DNA of 41,506 nt from positions 1 to 41,506 of the IMG/VR virus record IMGVR_UViG_3300008108_000122. One strand, given 5' to 3'. Numbering within the stretch: position 1 is the first letter of the stretch; each line of letters begins with the position of its first letter. Below are positions 1,741 through 14,804 of this stretch, one piece after another. The DNA comes from a virus. Made by a program: the position numbers and the translations under genes. Under the pieces are notes generated by a model. That model ran no database searches, was not told the DNA's origin, and saw only the letters and a program-made list of their open reading frames with translations.

Positions 1741-1773
1741 ACATACATCGACAACGCAATTAGGAGCGAAACT

Positions 1774-4624: not shown

Positions 4625-4999
4625 ATGGCAACAGATAAACTGTTTACGGTAGTTGGTACTTCTAAGCTCAATGGTGAGATGAAGGTTCGCTTTGCGAACG
4701 ATGTGATGCGTGTTAAGGTGCTGGCAAAGCACGGACACACTGACATTAACCTTATTGAGTTGGATACTCCAATGACCAAGCTTGAGGCTGTAAAAGTTCT
4801 CAAGACTGCGGACGAGTTCCAAGGCGCCGCAGAGCAAAGCGCAATCGCTGACTATCTCGATCGCAAGGACGAGACACCCGCCAAAGCTACAAAGGCTGTG
4901 GCACCTGCTAAGACTGCAACGGTCAAGGCTCCCAAAGTCAAAGCTGCTATCAAAGCATCTAAGATTGACACTAGCGAGATGGAAGACGCTCCATTCTAA
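4625..4999 (+). CDS. Phage protein with SSB-like acidic tail, 124 aa
   Basis: Start ATG follows AAAAGGCAAAATAAA. Residues 1-65 form a compact beta-rich domain (LFTVVGTSKLNGEMKVRF, then VMRVKVLAKHGHTDINLIEL). Residues 84-112 are a Lys/Ala-rich linker, and the protein ends DTSEMEDAPF. The last residues resemble the acidic DDDIPF tip by which bacterial SSB recruits partners. The N-terminal domain is not an obvious OB fold, so I do not call it SSB. It may bind nucleic acid or a host SSB partner; that is inference. It has its own promoter with a protected 5' end, suggesting high expression. Confidence 0.65.
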   Translation: MATDKLFTVVGTSKLNGEMKVRFANDVMRVKVLAKHGHTDINLIELDTPMTKLEAVKVLKTADEFQGAAEQSAIADYLDRKDETPAKATKAVAPAKTATVKAPKVKAAIKASKIDTSEMEDAPF

Positions 5000-5419: not shown

Positions 5420-5504
5420 GCTCGGATGGTGAAATAGGTAGACACAAGAGACTTAAAATCTCTCGCTGAAAGGCGTGCCGGTTCGATTCCGGCTCCGAGC
5501 ACCA
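5420..5504 (+). tRNA. tRNA-Leu (anticodon UAA)
   Basis: Acceptor GCTCGGA pairs with TCCGAGC. Anticodon arm AGAGA-CTTAAAA-TCTCT gives anticodon TAA. A short class II variable arm follows, then T arm GCCGG-TTCGATT-CCGGC, and the 3' ACCA is encoded. 85 nt. It reads UUA codons, favoured by AT-rich phage genes. Confidence 0.95.
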
Positions 5505-5505
5505 A

Positions 5506-5547
5506 GAATACCAAAGTAAATTTACAGGGAATACCAAAGTAAATTTA
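5506..5547 (+). repeat. 19-bp tandem direct repeat between tRNA genes
   Basis: GAATACCAAAGTAAATTTA occurs at 5506-5524 and again at 5529-5547, a 23-bp period. The repeats fill the spacer between tRNA-Leu and tRNA-Arg and could be a processing spacer or a scar of tRNA duplication and loss. Confidence 0.9.
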
Positions 5548-5548
5548 T

Positions 5549-5625
5549 CTGACTGTAGCTCAACTGGATAGAGCAACAGCCTTCTAAGCTGTAGGTCGGG
5601 GGTTCGAGTCCCTCCAGTCAGGCCA
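5549..5625 (+). tRNA. tRNA-Arg (anticodon UCU)
   Basis: Acceptor CTGACTG pairs with CAGTCAG. Anticodon arm ACAGC-CTTCTAA-GCTGT gives TCT. T arm GGGGG-TTCGAGT-CCCTC has one G-U pair. GCCA is encoded at the 3' end. 77 nt. It reads AGA codons. Confidence 0.95.
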
Positions 5626-5630
5626 GTTTA

Positions 5631-5708
5631 GGGCCTCTAGCTCATGTTGGTTAGAGCAGTGGACTCATAATCCATTGGTGCGGAGTTCGACTCTCCGGGG
5701 GCCCACCA
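5631..5708 (+). tRNA. tRNA with CAU anticodon (elongator Met, or Ile2 if lysidinylated)
   Basis: Acceptor GGGCCTC pairs with GGGGCCC including a G-U pair. Anticodon arm GTGGA-CTCATAA-TCCAT gives CAT. T arm CGGAG-TTCGACT-CTCCG. ACCA is encoded. 78 nt. The GGGCC-type acceptor resembles tRNA-Ile2, which reads AUA after TilS modification, but elongator Met cannot be excluded. The initiator is excluded because its 1-72 mismatch is absent. Confidence 0.9.
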
Positions 5709-6207: not shown

Positions 6208-6239
6208 AGATACATAGACAGCAACAAGGAGCGAACCAA

Positions 6240-6533
6240 ATGGCTAAACTATTGATCCAAACCCAAGTGTACGAGAACTACGGTACGGCTGATGAGCCTT
6301 ACTGGAAACCCAAAGGCGGTGCAGACTACGTGGTCAAGAAGTTCAAAGACTTCAACAAGGTCACTGAAACTGTGATGGCCCTGCGCTCACAGATCGAGCA
6401 GGACAACGAATACTACCGCGAGCACATCATCAACTTCGAAGTTGTGGCCAACGACTACATGACAGACTTTGAGAAGGATCAGTGGGAATACGAAGGCAAA
6501 ATCACTTATCCCGCAAAGGAGTTGGCATGGTAA
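6240..6533 (+). CDS. Conserved phage protein, 97 aa (MAKLLIQTQVYENYG family)
   Basis: Starts after GGAGCGAA (6228-6235). The sequence MAKLLIQTQVYENYGTADEPYWKPKGG is a pattern seen in uncharacterised proteins of many tailed phages. It is followed by a lysine-rich strand (DYVVKKFKDF), a long helix (KVTETVMALRSQIEQDNEYY) and a final strand region. It has no cysteines and no catalytic signature. It overlaps the tiny membrane-peptide gene at 6527. Family conserved, role unknown. Confidence 0.75.
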   Translation: MAKLLIQTQVYENYGTADEPYWKPKGGADYVVKKFKDFNKVTETVMALRSQIEQDNEYYREHIINFEVVANDYMTDFEKDQWEYEGKITYPAKELAW

Positions 6534-6631: not shown

Positions 6632-6658
6632 ACATACATAGACAAGCAAGGAGCGAAG

Positions 6659-6880
6659 ATGATTAGAGAGCACATTGAGATGGATACACGACATGGTGGT
6701 CCATACGATCGCGGTACAGCCGACAGCTACTACCGCAGAAGCTATAACCCTCACTATTACAAGGGCGACACTGGTAACTCACCTCGTGTAACGCTCAAAG
6801 ACATGACACCCGACGAGATCGTGGCCTACACCGCAGGCTATCGCGACAACGAAGATGAAGGCAACTTCAAAGAGTATTAA
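6659..6880 (+). CDS. Conserved phage protein, 73 aa (HGGPYDRG family)
   Basis: Starts after GGAGCGAA (6650-6657). The product has MDTRHGGPYDRGTADSYYRR, then NPHYYKG, and an acidic YRDNEDEGNFKEY tail. The strings RHGGPxDRGxAD.YY and 'NPHYY' belong to a short protein common in T4-like and other phages, of unknown function. His, Tyr and Arg are unusually frequent. It is a single-gene transcript ending at the next hairpin-promoter. Confidence 0.75.
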   Translation: MIREHIEMDTRHGGPYDRGTADSYYRRSYNPHYYKGDTGNSPRVTLKDMTPDEIVAYTAGYRDNEDEGNFKEY

Positions 6881-7217: not shown

Positions 7218-7250
7218 ACATACATATTAACACAAAAGGGAGCGACCCAA

Positions 7251-7634
7251 ATGGCTAAAGTAAATTATGACAAGTTTGCCTCGTTTGACATTAACGAGTG
7301 CTGTGATCACTTTGACAGTGAGAAGCAGAGCAACTGGAAGAAGATTGGCAAGTTCATCGTAGCAGATGGACAGGACTATGCCCATATTATGGAAACAGAG
7401 TTTGACTTTGAAGATGTAGGCAATGGCGAGTATGCGGCCTTTGAGGCAGGTGTTAAGTACGCACTGACCAAGATGAACATTGCTTTTGAAGCGGCTGCTG
7501 TAGACTTGCAGATCTGCGAGGTAGACTTGGTAGAGAGCATGGGCTTTATGATGGTACGTTGCGATGACGAGCCAGAGGACTTTGTCAAGCGGGTTATGAA
7601 GAAGCCTGTTATGATGGTAGACAGCTGGTGCTAA
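7251..7634 (+). CDS. Hypothetical early protein, 127 aa
   Basis: The start was chosen after GGGAGCGACCCAA; the longer frame crosses the promoter. The product starts MAKVNYDKFASFDINECCDHFD and is acidic. It has a central alanine-rich helix (YAAFEAGVKYALTKMNIAFEAAAVDL), then ICEVDLVESMGFMMVRCDDEP. There are five cysteines, without regular zinc-finger spacing. No family is recognised. It is followed by a 60-bp gap and another promoter. Confidence 0.7.
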   Translation: MAKVNYDKFASFDINECCDHFDSEKQSNWKKIGKFIVADGQDYAHIMETEFDFEDVGNGEYAAFEAGVKYALTKMNIAFEAAAVDLQICEVDLVESMGFMMVRCDDEPEDFVKRVMKKPVMMVDSWC

Positions 7635-7723: not shown

Positions 7724-7852
7724 AGAGACATAGTAAGAAGCAAGGCGATCCTCAAATGTAAGAACCCAGCAGAAATGCAAAAAGGGTTGTAACCAAGGGA
7801 TACGAAGCGAGTTTGGAGACTCGGCCTAAGCCAACATGCACAGGAGCGAACC
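7724..7852 (+). other. Unusually long 5' leader
   Basis: This leader is about 120 nt, whereas other early leaders here are about 25-30 nt. It contains a CGAGT-TTGGAG-ACTCG hairpin (around 7808-7823) shortly before the Shine-Dalgarno GGAGCGAA (7843-7850), and no open frame of note. It may be a regulatory leader or carry a small RNA; no known riboswitch is recognised. Confidence 0.45.
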
Positions 7853-8047
7853 ATGCAAGTACACTTTATCAACACAGGAACCAAAGAGGACTTTGGTTTT
7901 AGAGAAGTCAACGTAGAAGCCTTCAAGTTGGATCACGACAATGCTCCTTATTGCATCGTTAGCAATCCATTTTTCCCGGGCGAAAGTCTACGTGCAGAGT
8001 ACAACTTCTATAACGATTGCCTGCAATGGGTGGTTGACATAGATTGA
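7853..8047 (+). CDS. Hypothetical early protein, 64 aa
   Basis: Starts three bases after GGAGCGAA (7843-7850). The product MQVHFINTGTKEDFGFREVN is beta-rich, has an NAPYCIVSNPFFPGESL segment and ends NDCLQWVVDID. No domain is recognised. The last codons contain the -35 box of the next promoter (8034-8039). It has the only long leader in this region, so its expression may be regulated differently from its neighbours. Confidence 0.65.
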   Translation: MQVHFINTGTKEDFGFREVNVEAFKLDHDNAPYCIVSNPFFPGESLRAEYNFYNDCLQWVVDID

Positions 8048-8062: not shown

Positions 8063-8094
8063 ATACACTTAAACAACGCAAATAGGAGCGAACT

Positions 8095-8373
8095 ATGAAC
8101 GTACAGCAGATCAATACAGCCCTGGTAACAGGTTCATTCACTAACGATCAACTGGCAAGTGTGATTGATGCAGTCAAGTTTGCTCGTAGCCGTTTGGCAC
8201 AGACTACAAAGAGCACTCTGCGAGTAGGCGACAATGTCAACTTTACCTCTAGCAAAACCGGACAGAACATGACAGGTTTTGTTACAAAGATTGCCATTAA
8301 ATATGTAACAGTCAAAACAATGAACGGCTTGTGGCGTGTGCCAGCTAACATGCTGAACAAGGTTGAAGCCTAA
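8095..8373 (+). CDS. Small protein with SH3/KOW-like domain, 92 aa
   Basis: Starts after GGAGCGAA (8085-8092). Residues 1-40 are helical (NDQLASVIDAVKFARSRLAQ). Residues 42-90 read as an SH3-like barrel: LRVGDNVNFTSSKTGQNMTGFVTKI, then KYVTVKTMNGLWRVPANML. This resembles KOW-type and similar nucleic-acid or ribosome-associated barrels in small phage proteins. The domain call is by pattern only. It may bind RNA, the ribosome or polymerase; unproven. Confidence 0.65.
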   Translation: MNVQQINTALVTGSFTNDQLASVIDAVKFARSRLAQTTKSTLRVGDNVNFTSSKTGQNMTGFVTKIAIKYVTVKTMNGLWRVPANMLNKVEA

Positions 8374-8383
8374 TTACAGAACT

Positions 8384-8420
8384 AATAGAGCTTGACAACA
8401 GGCTCTATTGATGCTATAAT
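8384..8420 (+). promoter_or_regulatory. Early promoter with -35 inside a perfect 8-bp hairpin
   Basis: AATAGAGC (8384-8391) pairs with GCTCTATT (8402-8409). The loop TTGACAACAG starts with the -35 TTGACA (8392-8397), followed by a 17-bp spacer and -10 TATAAT (8415-8420). It drives the AAA+ gene and, by read-through, the structured RNA after it. Confidence 0.9.
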
Positions 8421-8450
8421 TACTTTTTTAAACAACATTGGAGCGAAACA

Positions 8451-9308
8451 ATGCCAGGATATCGTGTAGTAAAATTGGACGAGCAGAGCAACAAGACTAT
8501 CCCTCAGCGTAGTACTGTAGAGCCCGTCAGCAAAGAATCAGATGCAGAGATCATGGAGCGTATGCGTGAACGCTTTGAGATCCTTGACGACATGACCCGT
8601 GCGGTTAAAAAGGGTGCAGTACGTGCTATGATTGTAAGCGGTGCACCGGGTGTGGGCAAGAGCTTTGGTGTTGAGAAAGTACTGAGCAAGCATCAACTCC
8701 TCGCAGACGTAGCCAACGATCAAAAGCTCAAGAAGTTTGAGATTGTCAAAGGCGCTATGTCAGCTATTGGACTGTACAAGAAGCTGTACGAGTACAGTGA
8801 CTCTAAGTGTATCCTTGTGTTCGATGACTGCGATTCAGTACTGTTGGACGACATTGCACTCAACATCCTTAAGGCTGCATTGGATACAAGCAAGAAGCGT
8901 ACCATCAGCTGGAACACAGACAGCCGTAGTTTGATTGCAGAAGGTGTGCCCAATAGCTTTGAGTACAAGGGCGGTGCTATCTTTATTACTAATATTAACT
9001 TCCAGAACATCAAGAGCAAGAAGCTTCAGGATCACTTGGCAGCATTGGAAAGCCGTTGCCACTACATTGATCTTACGATCCATACAGAGCGTGACAAGAT
9101 GTTGCGTATCCGACAGATCGTAGCTGATGGCATGCTGGCAGAGTACGAGTTCACAACAGAGCAACAAGCAGAGCTGGTAGAGTTTGTAGATGCTAACAAG
9201 AAGCGCCTGCGTGAACTGAGCTTGCGTACAGTACTTAAGACTGCTGACTTGATCAAGAGCTTCCCAGCTAAATGGCAACGTGTAGCAGAGGTTAGCCTTA
9301 TGCGCTAA
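8451..9308 (+). CDS. AAA+ family ATPase, 285 aa
   Basis: Starts after GGAGCGAA (8440-8447). Walker A GAPGVGKS is at residues 64-71, and Walker B ILVFDDCD is at about 121-128. A sensor-1-like FITN is at 178-181, and a candidate arginine finger lies in LESRC near residue 202. The length and order fit a single AAA+ module with a short N-terminal helical part. It lacks the clamp-loader signature expected of gp44, and the family is not further assigned. It may remodel a protein complex or nucleic acid. It is the last early gene, and its 3' untranslated region holds the tandem hairpins. Confidence 0.85.
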   Translation: MPGYRVVKLDEQSNKTIPQRSTVEPVSKESDAEIMERMRERFEILDDMTRAVKKGAVRAMIVSGAPGVGKSFGVEKVLSKHQLLADVANDQKLKKFEIVKGAMSAIGLYKKLYEYSDSKCILVFDDCDSVLLDDIALNILKAALDTSKKRTISWNTDSRSLIAEGVPNSFEYKGGAIFITNINFQNIKSKKLQDHLAALESRCHYIDLTIHTERDKMLRIRQIVADGMLAEYEFTTEQQAELVEFVDANKKRLRELSLRTVLKTADLIKSFPAKWQRVAEVSLMR

Positions 9309-9494
9309 TGCATACAGCTAGCAGGGCAGCTTGAGCCCTGCACACTGTACTAGAGCACAGCATACACAAAGCTCTAGACAGTGCAGTTAGATCCAGTTCG
9401 ATTCGCTCCCGACAGTGATCTAACAGGGACTGCTGTGAAGCAGACCTTTGAACCCCATGATCCGATTCGCTCCCGGTCATGGGGTTTCTTTTCA
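9309..9494 (+). ncRNA. Structured RNA with two identical anti-Shine-Dalgarno loops (candidate antisense sRNA)
   Basis: Five hairpins in a row: GCAGGGC/GCCCTGC (9321-9341); CACTG..CTAGAGC with GCTCTAG..CAGTG (9343-9383); GTTAGATC/GATCTAAC (9386-9424); CTGCT/AGCAG (9430-9443); AACCCCATGA/TCATGGGGTT (9451-9486), followed by TTCTTTT. Hairpins 3 and 5 have different stems but the same loop CGATTCGCTCCCG (9399-9411, 9463-9475). TTCGCTCC in the loop is the exact reverse complement of GGAGCGAA, the Shine-Dalgarno of six early genes here. No separate promoter is seen, so it is probably a 3'-UTR-derived RNA of the AAA+ transcript. Direction plus is inferred from the T-run after the last stem. The antisense role is inference. 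Confidence 0.6.
9451..9492 (+). terminator. Intrinsic terminator ending the early region
   Basis: A perfect 10-bp stem AACCCCATGA/TCATGGGGTT with a 16-nt loop, followed by TTCTTTT. It ends the AAA+ transcript and forms the last hairpin of the structured RNA. Confidence 0.8.
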
Positions 9495-9500
9495 TCGATG

Positions 9501-9549
9501 AGGTCAGGGGGTCGGGGCGACCATCGGGGTGAGGTGAGGGGGTCGGGGC
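9501..9549 (+). repeat. G-rich duplicated block with quadruplex potential
   Basis: GAGGT(C/G)AGGGGGTCGGGGC occurs twice (9500-9518 and 9531-9549). Five G-runs of 4-5 (9507-9511, 9514-9517, 9526-9529, 9538-9542, 9545-9548) with loops of 2-8 nt meet the usual pattern for an intramolecular G-quadruplex on the plus strand. No gene covers it. Confidence 0.75.
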
Positions 9550-9616
9550 TTAATAATGATATTTGTAATACTAAATTATTACGGCTTAGTGGTGCTAAAT
9601 CACCAGGCAGAATCTG

Positions 9617-9785
9617 TAAGTACTTCTCTTATATTTTTTGCGCGGCAGATTTTTAACCCTGCAGGACCCATTTCAGGGAAGAGACTCGCAGGCGATTCTT
9701 TACTGTAAAACTACCTTGAAGAAACTCTAAGTACTTCCCTAAAAATTTTTGCGCTAAATTTTTTTTTGGTCTGCAGACCCCATTT
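9617..9785. repeat. 57-bp imperfect direct repeat, period 111 bp
   Basis: Copies lie at 9617-9673 and 9728-9785. Both start TAAGTACTTC, contain TTTTTGCGC followed by a long T-run, and end CTGCAG(G/A)(A/C)CCCATTT. They lie between the converging early plus-strand region and the minus-strand gene at 9790. They may be termination or replication sequences; nothing decides this. With the hairpins and G-rich block they fill the only gene-free stretch over 300 bases. Confidence 0.75.
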
Positions 9786-9789
9786 GGGC

Positions 9790-10215
9790 TCAGTCCCACA
9801 TCGTGCGGAATTCACCGTAACTGCGTATTGCTGTATATGTTGCTTCAGCTAGAAATTCAAAGTGTTTATACAGTGCTCTCACAGCAGGAAAATCCCCCTG
9901 CTTTAAAACCATTTCGTAACAGCCCTGCCCCATGTCTACATAGTAACTGGCAGCAATTCCTCTACGTTCTCCCAACTCTGGAAACACTGCACGAGTGAAC
10001 CAACAGGTATTGCCCAATGCCAATGCTTCTGCGGGTGTACGCAAAGTCATATAGCGTTCAGCGTAGCTAGGCTCGGGTTGCCATGGGTTTTTATCCATCT
10101 TTTCAGCTAACAGTTTAGCTTCATACACTGTAACAAAGTCTGGTATTGCCCAGCCTTGACGCTGATATGTAGTTTCCAATATATTTTTTATACCCTTTTC
10201 TGCTGTATAGTTCAT
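9790..10215 (-). CDS. Hypothetical protein, 141 aa (acetyltransferase-like size, unassigned)
   Basis: The ATG at 10215 was chosen because GGAG lies 5 nt upstream; a GTG two codons earlier is possible. The product is a soluble alpha/beta protein with TYQRQGWAIPDFVTVYEAKLLAEKM, ALALGNTCWFTRAVFPELGERRGIAASYYVDMGQ, and an aromatic C-terminal helix. The 'R.A.YYVDMGQGCYEMVLKQGDFPAVRALYKHF' portion recalls the C-terminal half of small GNAT-type acetyltransferases, but the acetyl-CoA loop is not clear, so I leave it unassigned. A divergent late box lies just upstream. Confidence 0.6.
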   Translation of the reverse strand: MNYTAEKGIKNILETTYQRQGWAIPDFVTVYEAKLLAEKMDKNPWQPEPSYAERYMTLRTPAEALALGNTCWFTRAVFPELGERRGIAASYYVDMGQGCYEMVLKQGDFPAVRALYKHFEFLAEATYTAIRSYGEFRTMWD

Positions 10216-13334: not shown

Positions 13335-14804
13335 TTATGTAAACACTTTAACACCGTAATGGCTCTCAAAGTTTCGAGCATCCGAAACATCATTGACCAT
13401 GGGCTTGCCCTTGATATTTAGGCTAGTGTTCAACAATATAGGACAACCCGATGCTGCATACCATTGTTCTAACAACTGTCTTATTCTACTGCCGTCTGCC
13501 GGTACAGTCTGTACACGACTAGTGTTGTCCCTATGCACGATAGCAGGAAATAACTGAGGATGAATACAACGACTGATGAACTGCATATGCCTATTGTCAC
13601 TGCTAGCACCAGGGAGATCAAAGTATTGATCAGCCAACTCCTCCAAAACCATTGGCGCAAAAGGTCTGAATTCTTGTCTACGTTTGATTGCATTTACTGT
13701 GTCCTTAATATCAGGTCCTCGGGGATCTGCTAGTAAACTACGATTGCCCAGGGCACGAGGACCAAATTCTGCGCGGCCTTGAGCAACTCCGCACATCTTA
13801 TCTTTGAGCAAATGTTCTAAAATTGCTTCAGTTGATTGAGTTGGTTCTATATTGTAACCTAGGCTACAAGTTTCCCAGCCGATGTGTTCTTTGTTTCTTG
13901 CTAGAACTGCACCTATAGCTGAACCTGCATCTCCGGGATTAGGCATAATCCAAACGTTTTTAAAGTATTTGTAAGCAATAGGGTTAGCTAGGCAATTAAG
14001 AGCACAGCCTCCCATTAGCACTAGATTATCACTAGGAACAAAACTTTTTGCTGACTGTAATATCTTTTCAAACTGTGTTTCGTAGATAGCCTGAGTAGCT
14101 GCTGCAATATCAAACGTGTCATTAACAGTAAGATCAGGCGCCCAATCTAAGCAACCGCGGTGTAGATTCTTTTTAAAACTAACTAAAGTTTCTCCATCTT
14201 TTTCAAAGAAATCTTCCAGTATTCTGTTGTACAGTCGTTTAGGATTTCCGTAAGCAGCCATACCCATAAGAATGTATTCTTCTTCGTTAGGTTTTAAATT
14301 GCATCTTTGTGTCATTGCTGAATACCAAAGACCTAGGCTATCCGGATATGTTTGCTTATATACTTGCTTTAGTCCTTTTTCACCGCCATGCCACATTGTT
14401 AGAGTTTCAAACTCACCAATTGCATCTATGACTACTACCGCAGCTTCTTTGAACGGGCCTGTATAAAAACCTGCGGCTGCATGACTTTCATGATGCCATT
14501 GAGTATAGATAGGAGCACTAATACCATAATTGTTCAAATATCGTTTGATATTATTGCTTTTATGATTTAGACCTTGTCCAGCAGTAAATTGCCTTAGAGT
14601 TTTTGCCCAAGGCTTTTCATACCATACAACTTCTTTAGGATAGCCGTAATGGCTGGCAGCATACTGAACTAGACTGTCGCAAAGATCTGCATCGTTCTTT
14701 TTTCCGCTGAATCGCTCACTGTGACTAGCGAACAATAACTTGTTGTCATCAAATACAGCCAATGCTGCATCATGACTATTTGCTGATATTCCCCAGGTAA
14801 TCAT
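13335..14804 (-). CDS. Carbamoyltransferase (NodU/CmcH family)
   Basis: A 489-residue protein with both family domains. The N-terminal Kae1-like part has GISANSHDAAL (5-15), HHESHAA (104-110) and VVVIDAIGE (123-131), the metal/ATP site. GGCALN (265-270) and NPGDAGSAIG (289-298) follow. The C-terminal YrdC-like part has GRAEFGPRALGNRS (343-356) and RPFAP (380-384). These enzymes carbamoylate sugar or antibiotic hydroxyls using carbamoyl phosphate and ATP. In phage it may modify a glycan, surface polymer or modified nucleotide. It sits between helicase and primase and overlaps the small gene at 14801 by ATGA. The C-terminus looks slightly shortened. Confidence 0.9.
   Translation of the reverse strand: MITWGISANSHDAALAVFDDNKLLFASHSERFSGKKNDADLCDSLVQYAASHYGYPKEVVWYEKPWAKTLRQFTAGQGLNHKSNNIKRYLNNYGISAPIYTQWHHESHAAAGFYTGPFKEAAVVVIDAIGEFETLTMWHGGEKGLKQVYKQTYPDSLGLWYSAMTQRCNLKPNEEEYILMGMAAYGNPKRLYNRILEDFFEKDGETLVSFKKNLHRGCLDWAPDLTVNDTFDIAAATQAIYETQFEKILQSAKSFVPSDNLVLMGGCALNCLANPIAYKYFKNVWIMPNPGDAGSAIGAVLARNKEHIGWETCSLGYNIEPTQSTEAILEHLLKDKMCGVAQGRAEFGPRALGNRSLLADPRGPDIKDTVNAIKRRQEFRPFAPMVLEELADQYFDLPGASSDNRHMQFISRCIHPQLFPAIVHRDNTSRVQTVPADGSRIRQLLEQWYAASGCPILLNTSLNIKGKPMVNDVSDARNFESHYGVKVFT

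Follow-up and report, generated by a model that had tools for sequence, protein, structure and literature searches.

The 3' untranslated region (3'UTR) of the mRNA for an AAA+ ATPase in a tailed phage and its relatives carries conserved hairpins in which one loop sequence stays constant while the stems around it change. This loop is exactly complementary to the Shine-Dalgarno region of phage leaders, and its presence is linked to that of such leaders. We consider it likely that the 3'UTR is an antisense regulator that blocks the leaders of the AAA+ gene and of neighboring early genes, although we infer, rather than observe, that the pairing occurs, that translation falls, and that the RNA acts in trans, either as intact mRNA or after processing to a 3' fragment. 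It is thus probable that the phage uses an RNA to lower the output of its own early genes, for which there are as yet no expression, binding or repression data. In the mechanism we propose, the 3'UTR would form two hairpins (relatives have one to three), each presenting the 9-nt loop AUUCGCUCC, with the last hairpin doubling as the transcription terminator. The loops would pair with GGAGCG(AA), that is, the Shine-Dalgarno sequence and the next two to four bases, in the leaders of the AAA+ gene and neighboring early genes, and thereby exclude ribosomes. The accumulating transcript would damp its own translation and turn down the other early genes, giving autogenous feedback together with early shut-off.

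The hairpins and their genomic setting

The 41,506-nt stretch of virus DNA analyzed here (the window) belongs to a tailed phage and includes genes for a tail sheath, a terminase, a DnaB-like helicase and a primase. The best cultured match listed for its terminase is that of Pseudomonas phage PA5oct (family Arenbergviridae), at 56.5% identity. The first 9.3 kb hold small genes, often preceded by a TTGACA-17-TATAAT promoter that is close to perfect; we call these genes early only by analogy with other phages, in the absence of expression data. These promoters, found before many of the small genes between 1712 and 8420, are accompanied by leader text held in common, for example acatacatagacaagcaaggagc, and the block also includes tRNA genes for Leu (TAA), Arg (TCT) and Met (CAT) at 5420-5708. 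A Nol-like carbamoyltransferase gene (phrog_1601) lies farther on, amid the replication genes, at 13335-14804. The small-gene block ends in the AAA+ gene, a member of phrog_1250 whose relative in KVP40 has an annotation of similarity to T4 nrdC.10, and the hairpins lie in the 3'UTR of this gene. The features of this region are as follows.

8392..8420, + strand: sigma-70 promoter TTGACA-17-TATAAT of the AAA+ gene, from the promoter scan; probable promoter of the RNA
8451..9308, + strand: gene for the AAA+ ATPase (phrog_1250), with the RNA in its mRNA; likely the chief target through its own leader (GGAGCG in 48/49 AAA+ leaders of RNA-carrying phages)
9309..9494, + strand: 3'UTR RNA of the AAA+ gene with two anti-Shine-Dalgarno hairpins, ending at the terminator; placed by its fold, the lack of a promoter-like site and the same position in relatives
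9321..9341, + strand: additional 3'UTR hairpin (GCAGGGC/GCCCTGC), from folding; no assigned role
9345..9381, + strand: additional 3'UTR hairpin (CTAGAGC/GCTCTAG), from folding; no assigned role
9386..9424, + strand: hairpin 1, loop ATTCGCTCC at 9401-9409; stem diverges and re-pairs in relatives
9425..9448, + strand: small hairpin between the two loop hairpins, from folding; no assigned role
9451..9486, + strand: hairpin 2, loop ATTCGCTCC at 9465-9473; -19.5 kcal/mol
9485..9492, + strand: U-tract TTTCTTTT at the base of hairpin 2, apparent intrinsic terminator; T-rich sequence follows the last hairpins of relatives

The preliminary description of this DNA had placed two hairpins with unrelated stems and an identical 13-nt loop at 9386-9424 and 9451-9486. 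Both hairpins, with their stems, are present as described, and the observation is real and not limited to the contig of the window. The 13-mer CGATTCGCTCCCG is exact in both and occurs only there, at 9399-9411 and 9463-9475 of the + strand, with no further match in the window at up to two mismatches (0.16 expected). Its length as a loop needs correction, because the outer CG/CG of the 13-mer pairs in the fold, with TCG/CGA continuing the stem in hairpin 1 and CCG/CGG doing so in hairpin 2; the unpaired loop is therefore the 9-nt ATTCGCTCC. The last eight bases of this loop, TTCGCTCC, are the exact complement of GGAGCGAA and on the + strand of the window are confined to the two loops. The segment from 9309 to 9495 (187 nt) folds at -76.3 kcal/mol (z = -6.45) and contains three further hairpins, and hairpin 2 with the TTTCTTTT that follows it looks like a Rho-independent (intrinsic) terminator. 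At the gathering score, Rfam searches of the window found tRNAs only. The best sub-threshold match of the 3'UTR segment, to anti-hemB, scored 16.7 bits against a cut-off of 49.5 and was taken as chance, and the sub-threshold search of six loci gave one C0719 match, on the minus strand of L043.

A consensus scan of the window listed no promoter-like site on the + strand from 8632 to 10156; the simplest view is therefore that the RNA forms the 3'UTR of the AAA+ transcript and is not a separate transcription unit. Across the relatives, the 205 nt located 5' of the first loop reached at least 10 of 12 matches to a sigma-70 promoter in 0/76 loci, and the mean match score of these stretches was 7.63 vs 7.93 after shuffling. 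An independent sRNA gene with its own promoter is therefore unsupported, and synthesis of the RNA probably accompanies that of the AAA+ mRNA. The suggestion of a candidate antisense RNA is thus retained in altered form, as a 3'UTR element of that mRNA for which no promoter of its own was found. As for the features of 3'UTR-derived sRNAs, the intrinsic terminator is present, and processing is not visible in sequence.

Directly 3' of the terminator, the interval 9496-9765 contains a tract rich in G, then AT-rich sequence that includes a GTGGTGCTAAATCACCAG hairpin, as well as AAGTACTTCTCTTATATTTTTTGCGC, of which a second, similar copy lies near 9725. Similar strings occur 3' of the RNA in relatives (AAGTA..TTTTTT in 44/74, GGTG..TCACC in 27/74), and this interval is possibly a late promoter or a replication origin.

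Loop constancy and stem divergence in relatives

When IMG/VR was scanned for pairs of loops with suitable spacing, 94 stretches were returned, some of them near-duplicates; in most, the stems had changed and a run of T followed the last hairpin. Because such a scan demands the loop, and yields identical loops by construction, relatives were fetched by the AAA+ protein alone and conservation was judged on that retrieval, which gave 80 loci and, after 14 duplicates were dropped, 66 distinct 3' regions. The loop is present in all 66 and in at least two copies in 62: two identical copies in 58 regions, a single copy in four, one standard copy plus one AATCGCTCC in three, and three copies in one. 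This count used a pattern with fixed flanks, in which nine of eleven bases were fixed. A recount that dropped the constraint, allowing up to two mismatches and requiring no closing pair, found 126 copies of ATTCGCTCC, three of AATCGCTCC and five words with two mismatches, and the closing pair is G-C in 129/129 loops; the same regions read backwards gave 0 exact matches, and 2 and 11 in the corresponding classes. The element is thus found in at least 66 distinct phage sequences. The phages that carry it look like one group, so the counts given here and below are not independent and Fisher values cannot be used as probabilities.

Where a region has more than one loop, the first of them starts 8-89 nt past the end of the AAA+ match. 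The gene upstream of the RNA falls in the AAA+ cluster at 54/75 loci, and several of the remaining upstream genes seem to be AAA+ genes that escaped the cut-off and have a stop overlapping the hairpin, such as that of L016, a locus present in the AAA+-protein retrieval list. In one subgroup (L003, L009 and L016), hairpin 1 and the stop codon of AAA+ seem to overlap (TGATTCGCTCCC), and ribosomes finishing AAA+ would therefore open hairpin 1 in these phages. Two loci, L092, which is a tandem repeat, and L033, whose hairpins are weak and lack a terminator, were left out of the terminator, leader, upstream-gene and promoter counts.

Between phages, the stem arms are 35-55% identical and the loop 99-100%. 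When 3' arms were exchanged between phages, the mean fold of the first hairpin went from -11.4 to -6.9 (a cost of 4.4 kcal/mol) and that of the last from -15.2 to -8.1 (a cost of 7.2 kcal/mol), and a hairpin's own arm outperformed the average exchange in 55/57 first and 53/53 last hairpins; it was better than every exchanged arm in just 13/57 and 30/53, respectively. Among 57 first hairpins, 41 have C-G as the second pair counted from the loop, 11 have T-A and 5 have a mismatch; in last hairpins this pair hardly varies. From these comparisons we read the hairpins as selected RNA structure with a fixed loop, which bears out the earlier inference, drawn from the window's two copies, that selection acts on the loop amid different stems: in relatives the loop is kept in 66/66 and the arms diverge and re-pair. 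All nine loop bases are free in the minimum-energy fold of 49/69 first and 48/65 last hairpins, and are not in over a quarter. Last hairpins in the relatives have at least six T within an 8-nt stretch in 58/65 cases, and their resemblance to ordinary intrinsic terminators raises the question of whether the whole pattern could come from chance, shared low-complexity sequence or common terminators. The presence of the loop in all 66 distinct 3' regions, together with the 57 complementary sites described below where 1.6 are expected, leaves this the least credible explanation of those considered.

The terminator-like last hairpin, the near invariance of the 9-nt loop and its uniform G-C closing pair would also suit an element that binds a protein or serves a structural purpose (RNA stability, termination, or a site for a phage RNA-binding protein), with the match to leaders being secondary. 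We regard this as improbable, in part because of loci in which the hairpin has been altered or lost. L095, L097, L100, L106 and L133, which come from close relatives of the window's phage (AAA+ identity 79-84%), have no standard hairpins after AAA+, yet TTCGCTCC persists there with other flanking sequence; in L106 and L133 it lies within the loop of another hairpin. L098 and L099, which are identical in this region, keep one standard loop. Loop hairpins stand behind a different gene, of ~91 codons, in L018, L100 and L106, and three of them occur in L062, on the same contig as L097. Judged by these loci, what is conserved is the complement of GGAGCGAA and not one particular fold. In addition, the leaders hold the complement of the loop and not the same sequence, so one single-strand binder cannot explain both, and the loop and GGAGCG leaders are present or absent together.

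Degenerate scans of IMG/VR for changed loops with terminator-like hairpins covered loop bases 1-4, not 5-9, and within that range AATCGCTCC was the sole family member found. The scan with a change at loop base 4 gave nine matches that look like chance, and the others gave 107 and 11 stretches, of which just AATCGCTCC remained family-like after a 6-nt inverted-repeat filter. The loop, being nearly invariant, varies too little to reveal covariation between loop and leaders, which would be the decisive comparative test. Among hairpins with GCTCC loops, seven relatives that lack the RNA (L110-L114, L116 and L117) have one whose loop, TATGCTCCT, could pair with their own leaders of the AGGAGCA type. 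This hairpin occurs once, upstream of AAA+, and in L112 (near 1994) lies inside a stop-free frame, and it was set aside as a changed-loop equivalent, being probably a coding chance. Candidate cellular homologues were also rejected, as 25 stretches from bacterial genomes are, by eye, tandem, coding or dispersed short repeats. Four of them have GGAGCGAA before an ATG, which in L309, L311 and L321 is the other strand of the repeat and in L310 is one separate site.

Leaders complementary to the loop

The preliminary description held that the loop contains the exact complement of the Shine-Dalgarno region at 1763, 6228, 6650, 7843, 8085 and 8440, and that the gene at 7251 has a pairing site as well. 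This is confirmed: GGAGCGAA is found at all six positions, each before an ORF, among eight sites in the whole window (0.58 expected), and the near match GGGAGCGAC precedes the ORF at 7251. The predicted targets are the following.

1763..1770, + strand: GGAGCGAA leader of the ORF at 1774
6228..6235, + strand: GGAGCGAA leader of the ORF at 6240
6650..6657, + strand: GGAGCGAA leader of the ORF at 6659
7238..7245, + strand: GGGAGCGA leader of the ORF at 7251; dG -12.1
7843..7850, + strand: GGAGCGAA leader of the ORF at 7853 (64 aa)
8085..8092, + strand: GGAGCGAA leader of the ORF at 8095
8440..8447, + strand: GGAGCGAA leader of the AAA+ gene; dG -13.1

The shorter GGAGCG occurs nine times on the + strand of the window, always before 9308 and seven times in leaders, and on the minus strand it is found in both loops, once at 4992, and nowhere else. 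When the 9-nt loop was paired with the starts of the window, 7/22 reached -11 kcal/mol or better (-12.1 to -13.3), six leaders with GGAGC only gave -8.7 to -8.8 kcal/mol, and the others were weaker; one of 27 minus-strand starts reached -10.7 kcal/mol and the remainder -6.2 or weaker. Against the same 22 starts, which include some doubtful ORFs, permuted loops averaged 0.28 and three stretches of the 16S anti-Shine-Dalgarno sequence reached 0/22. This test is weak on its own, because 9/500 permuted loops match as many window leaders as the real loop does. The idea that early genes are targeted is thus supported by six full-match leaders and one near match, and does not extend to all early genes.

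The relatives offer a stronger comparison. AAA+ leaders of RNA-carrying phages were taken from 64 of 81 loci (the 80 retrieved plus the window), giving 49 distinct leaders, of which 48 have GGAGCG, 20 of them as the full GGAGCGAA; the other 28 fall short of it although the UU of the loop is conserved. Among AAA+ relatives without the RNA (63 of 64 loci used, giving 35 distinct leaders plus six with no start found), the corresponding figure is 0/35, and leaders are of the GGAGCA type. The C and G after GGAG lie outside the Shine-Dalgarno core. The expectation that loop and complementary leaders go together is thus met, and a case that would refute it, with the loop absent and GGAGCGAA leaders kept, was sought in another set of 80 AAA+ relatives, 64 of them RNA-less, without finding one that has a set of sites. 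Single GGAGCGAA sites before an ATG or GTG do occur in 6/64 RNA-less relatives (L112, L113, L114, L116, L117 and L158), on the strand opposite AAA+ (minus).

The linkage extends to other genes. In 79 RNA-carrying loci, leaders up to 12 kb upstream on the same strand have GGAGCG in 268/476 and GGAGCGAA in 154/476, vs 6/215 and 0/215 in RNA-less relatives; 159 other leaders of the RNA-carrying contigs include 37 with GGAGCG and 21 with GGAGCGAA. By distance upstream of the RNA, GGAGCG is present in 91/107 leaders at less than 1.5 kb, 102/164 at 1.5-3 kb, 41/93 at 3-5 kb, 11/66 at 5-8 kb and 23/46 at 8-12 kb. Eight long records contain 123 GGAGCGAA sites, 57 of which lie in the sense direction within 13 kb upstream of the RNA, where ~1.6 are expected at equal base frequencies. 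The same 13-kb blocks, whose length and anchor were our choice, hold five antisense sites, two of them being loops of the RNA in G004.

The presence of the same site at the 5' end of the AAA+ mRNA had earlier been raised as an alternative, feedback on that mRNA, and proves to be the most conserved of the predicted interactions. Feedback is the firmest part of our proposal because the AAA+ gene itself is the most conserved target, and a regulon in trans is probable, with less certainty. One may hold that the loops control AAA+ alone, in cis, and that the other matches are copies of a promoter-leader cassette. The 48/49 conservation of the AAA+ leader, the lack of a separate promoter before the loop (0/76) and the promoter-leader text common to early leaders of the window all agree with this reading, which we think unlikely but the most serious of the alternatives. 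Copying of cassettes alone need not maintain the full GGAGCGAA in 154/476 upstream leaders against 0/215 in RNA-less relatives, and the loop hairpins behind another gene in L018, L100 and L106 also speak against it. A target outside the phage, in its as yet unknown host, is conceivable in that GGGGAGCGAACAGGATTAG of some bacteria, presumably in helix 24 of 16S rRNA, is complementary over eight loop bases plus the closing C. GGGGAGCGAACAGGATTAGATACC occurs four times in Streptomyces sp. GQFP, and a deltaproteobacterial MAG has GGGGAGCAAACAGG there, which we take to be the E. coli reading too. This genome check says little because 18/20 genomes gave no match, and as an rRNA target would leave the linkage to phage leaders unexplained we judge it very unlikely. 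The proposed blocking of AAA+ and neighboring early leaders accommodates that linkage.

Comparison with known regulators

By analogy, the RNA would work like the alpha-r14 or "cuckoo" RNAs, or like the c4 RNA of P1, and it is a member of neither family. Staphylococcus RNAIII and Listeria LhrC are bacterial regulators in which C-rich loops of the UCCC type pair with Shine-Dalgarno regions, unlike the element described here, which is phage-borne and whose complement runs past the Shine-Dalgarno sequence into CGAA. The accessible part of the report on the alpha-r14/cuckoo sRNAs (NfeR1, Sinorhizobium meliloti) describes identical, ultraconserved anti-Shine-Dalgarno loops on highly divergent stems, with redundant loops that silence by covering the ribosome-binding site, and bacterial sRNA genes with three hairpins and the loop CCUCCUCCC whose targets are host transport and ntrBC mRNAs (PMC10746234). 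As far as that part goes, the phage RNA shares the identical anti-Shine-Dalgarno loops and highly divergent stems, and differs in having the loop AUUCGCUCC, usually two hairpins, a location in the 3'UTR of a phage gene, and a match to the phage's own leaders. The CCUCCUCCC motif is absent from the phage loops, 126/129 of which are ATTCGCTCC and 3/129 AATCGCTCC. Nor is the RNA the product of its own sRNA gene in alphaproteobacteria as alpha-r14 is, since it was found on phage contigs, with promoters at 0/76 loci, and the cellular stretches look like unrelated repeats.

The c4 antisense RNA of P1/P7 (RF01695) is described, in the sections available, as having sequences, probably in loops, that are complementary to the ribosome-binding-site region of its own phage, and as acting on ant mRNA to block translation (PMC12197685, PMC2864571). 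On that description, the phage RNA is like c4 in a loop complementary to a phage ribosome-binding site, and unlike it in that many genes of the phage group studied here have the target word, where c4 has the ant mRNA. Rfam searches of the window, the segment and six loci gave no match to the RF01695 covariance model. More generally, the phage antisense RNAs covered in the consulted part of a 2025 review act on single phage genes or host RNAs (PMC12197685), and no earlier description of this phage RNA was found in the open-access literature among the matches listed.

In function the RNA would resemble RegA of T4, which is reported to repress ~30 mRNAs at their translation initiation regions in competition with ribosomes (PMC3014915). 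Phage-encoded repression at initiation regions, as proposed here, would be common to both, with RegA as described there being a protein and the regulator here an RNA. RegA (PF01818) was detected in 0/18 records of the phage group (G001-G018, both RNA-carrying and RNA-less), which may be fragments; as a control, the search found it in KVP40 and Cronobacter phage S13 and not in PA5oct (2/3 cultured phages). The RNA cannot be called a replacement for RegA, because relatives without the RNA have no detectable RegA either. We put at about even the broader view that a group of large uncultured tailed phages possesses an RNA counterpart of RegA, a 3'UTR RNA acting in trans through repeated loops on an early regulon as an RNA-only timer. 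The leaders of such a regulon would keep an address, CGAA next to GGAG. Target mRNAs could be predicted from sequence alone. If this is true, a conserved RNA acting on many early genes of the same phage as one set would represent an RNA solution to the job done in T4 by RegA.
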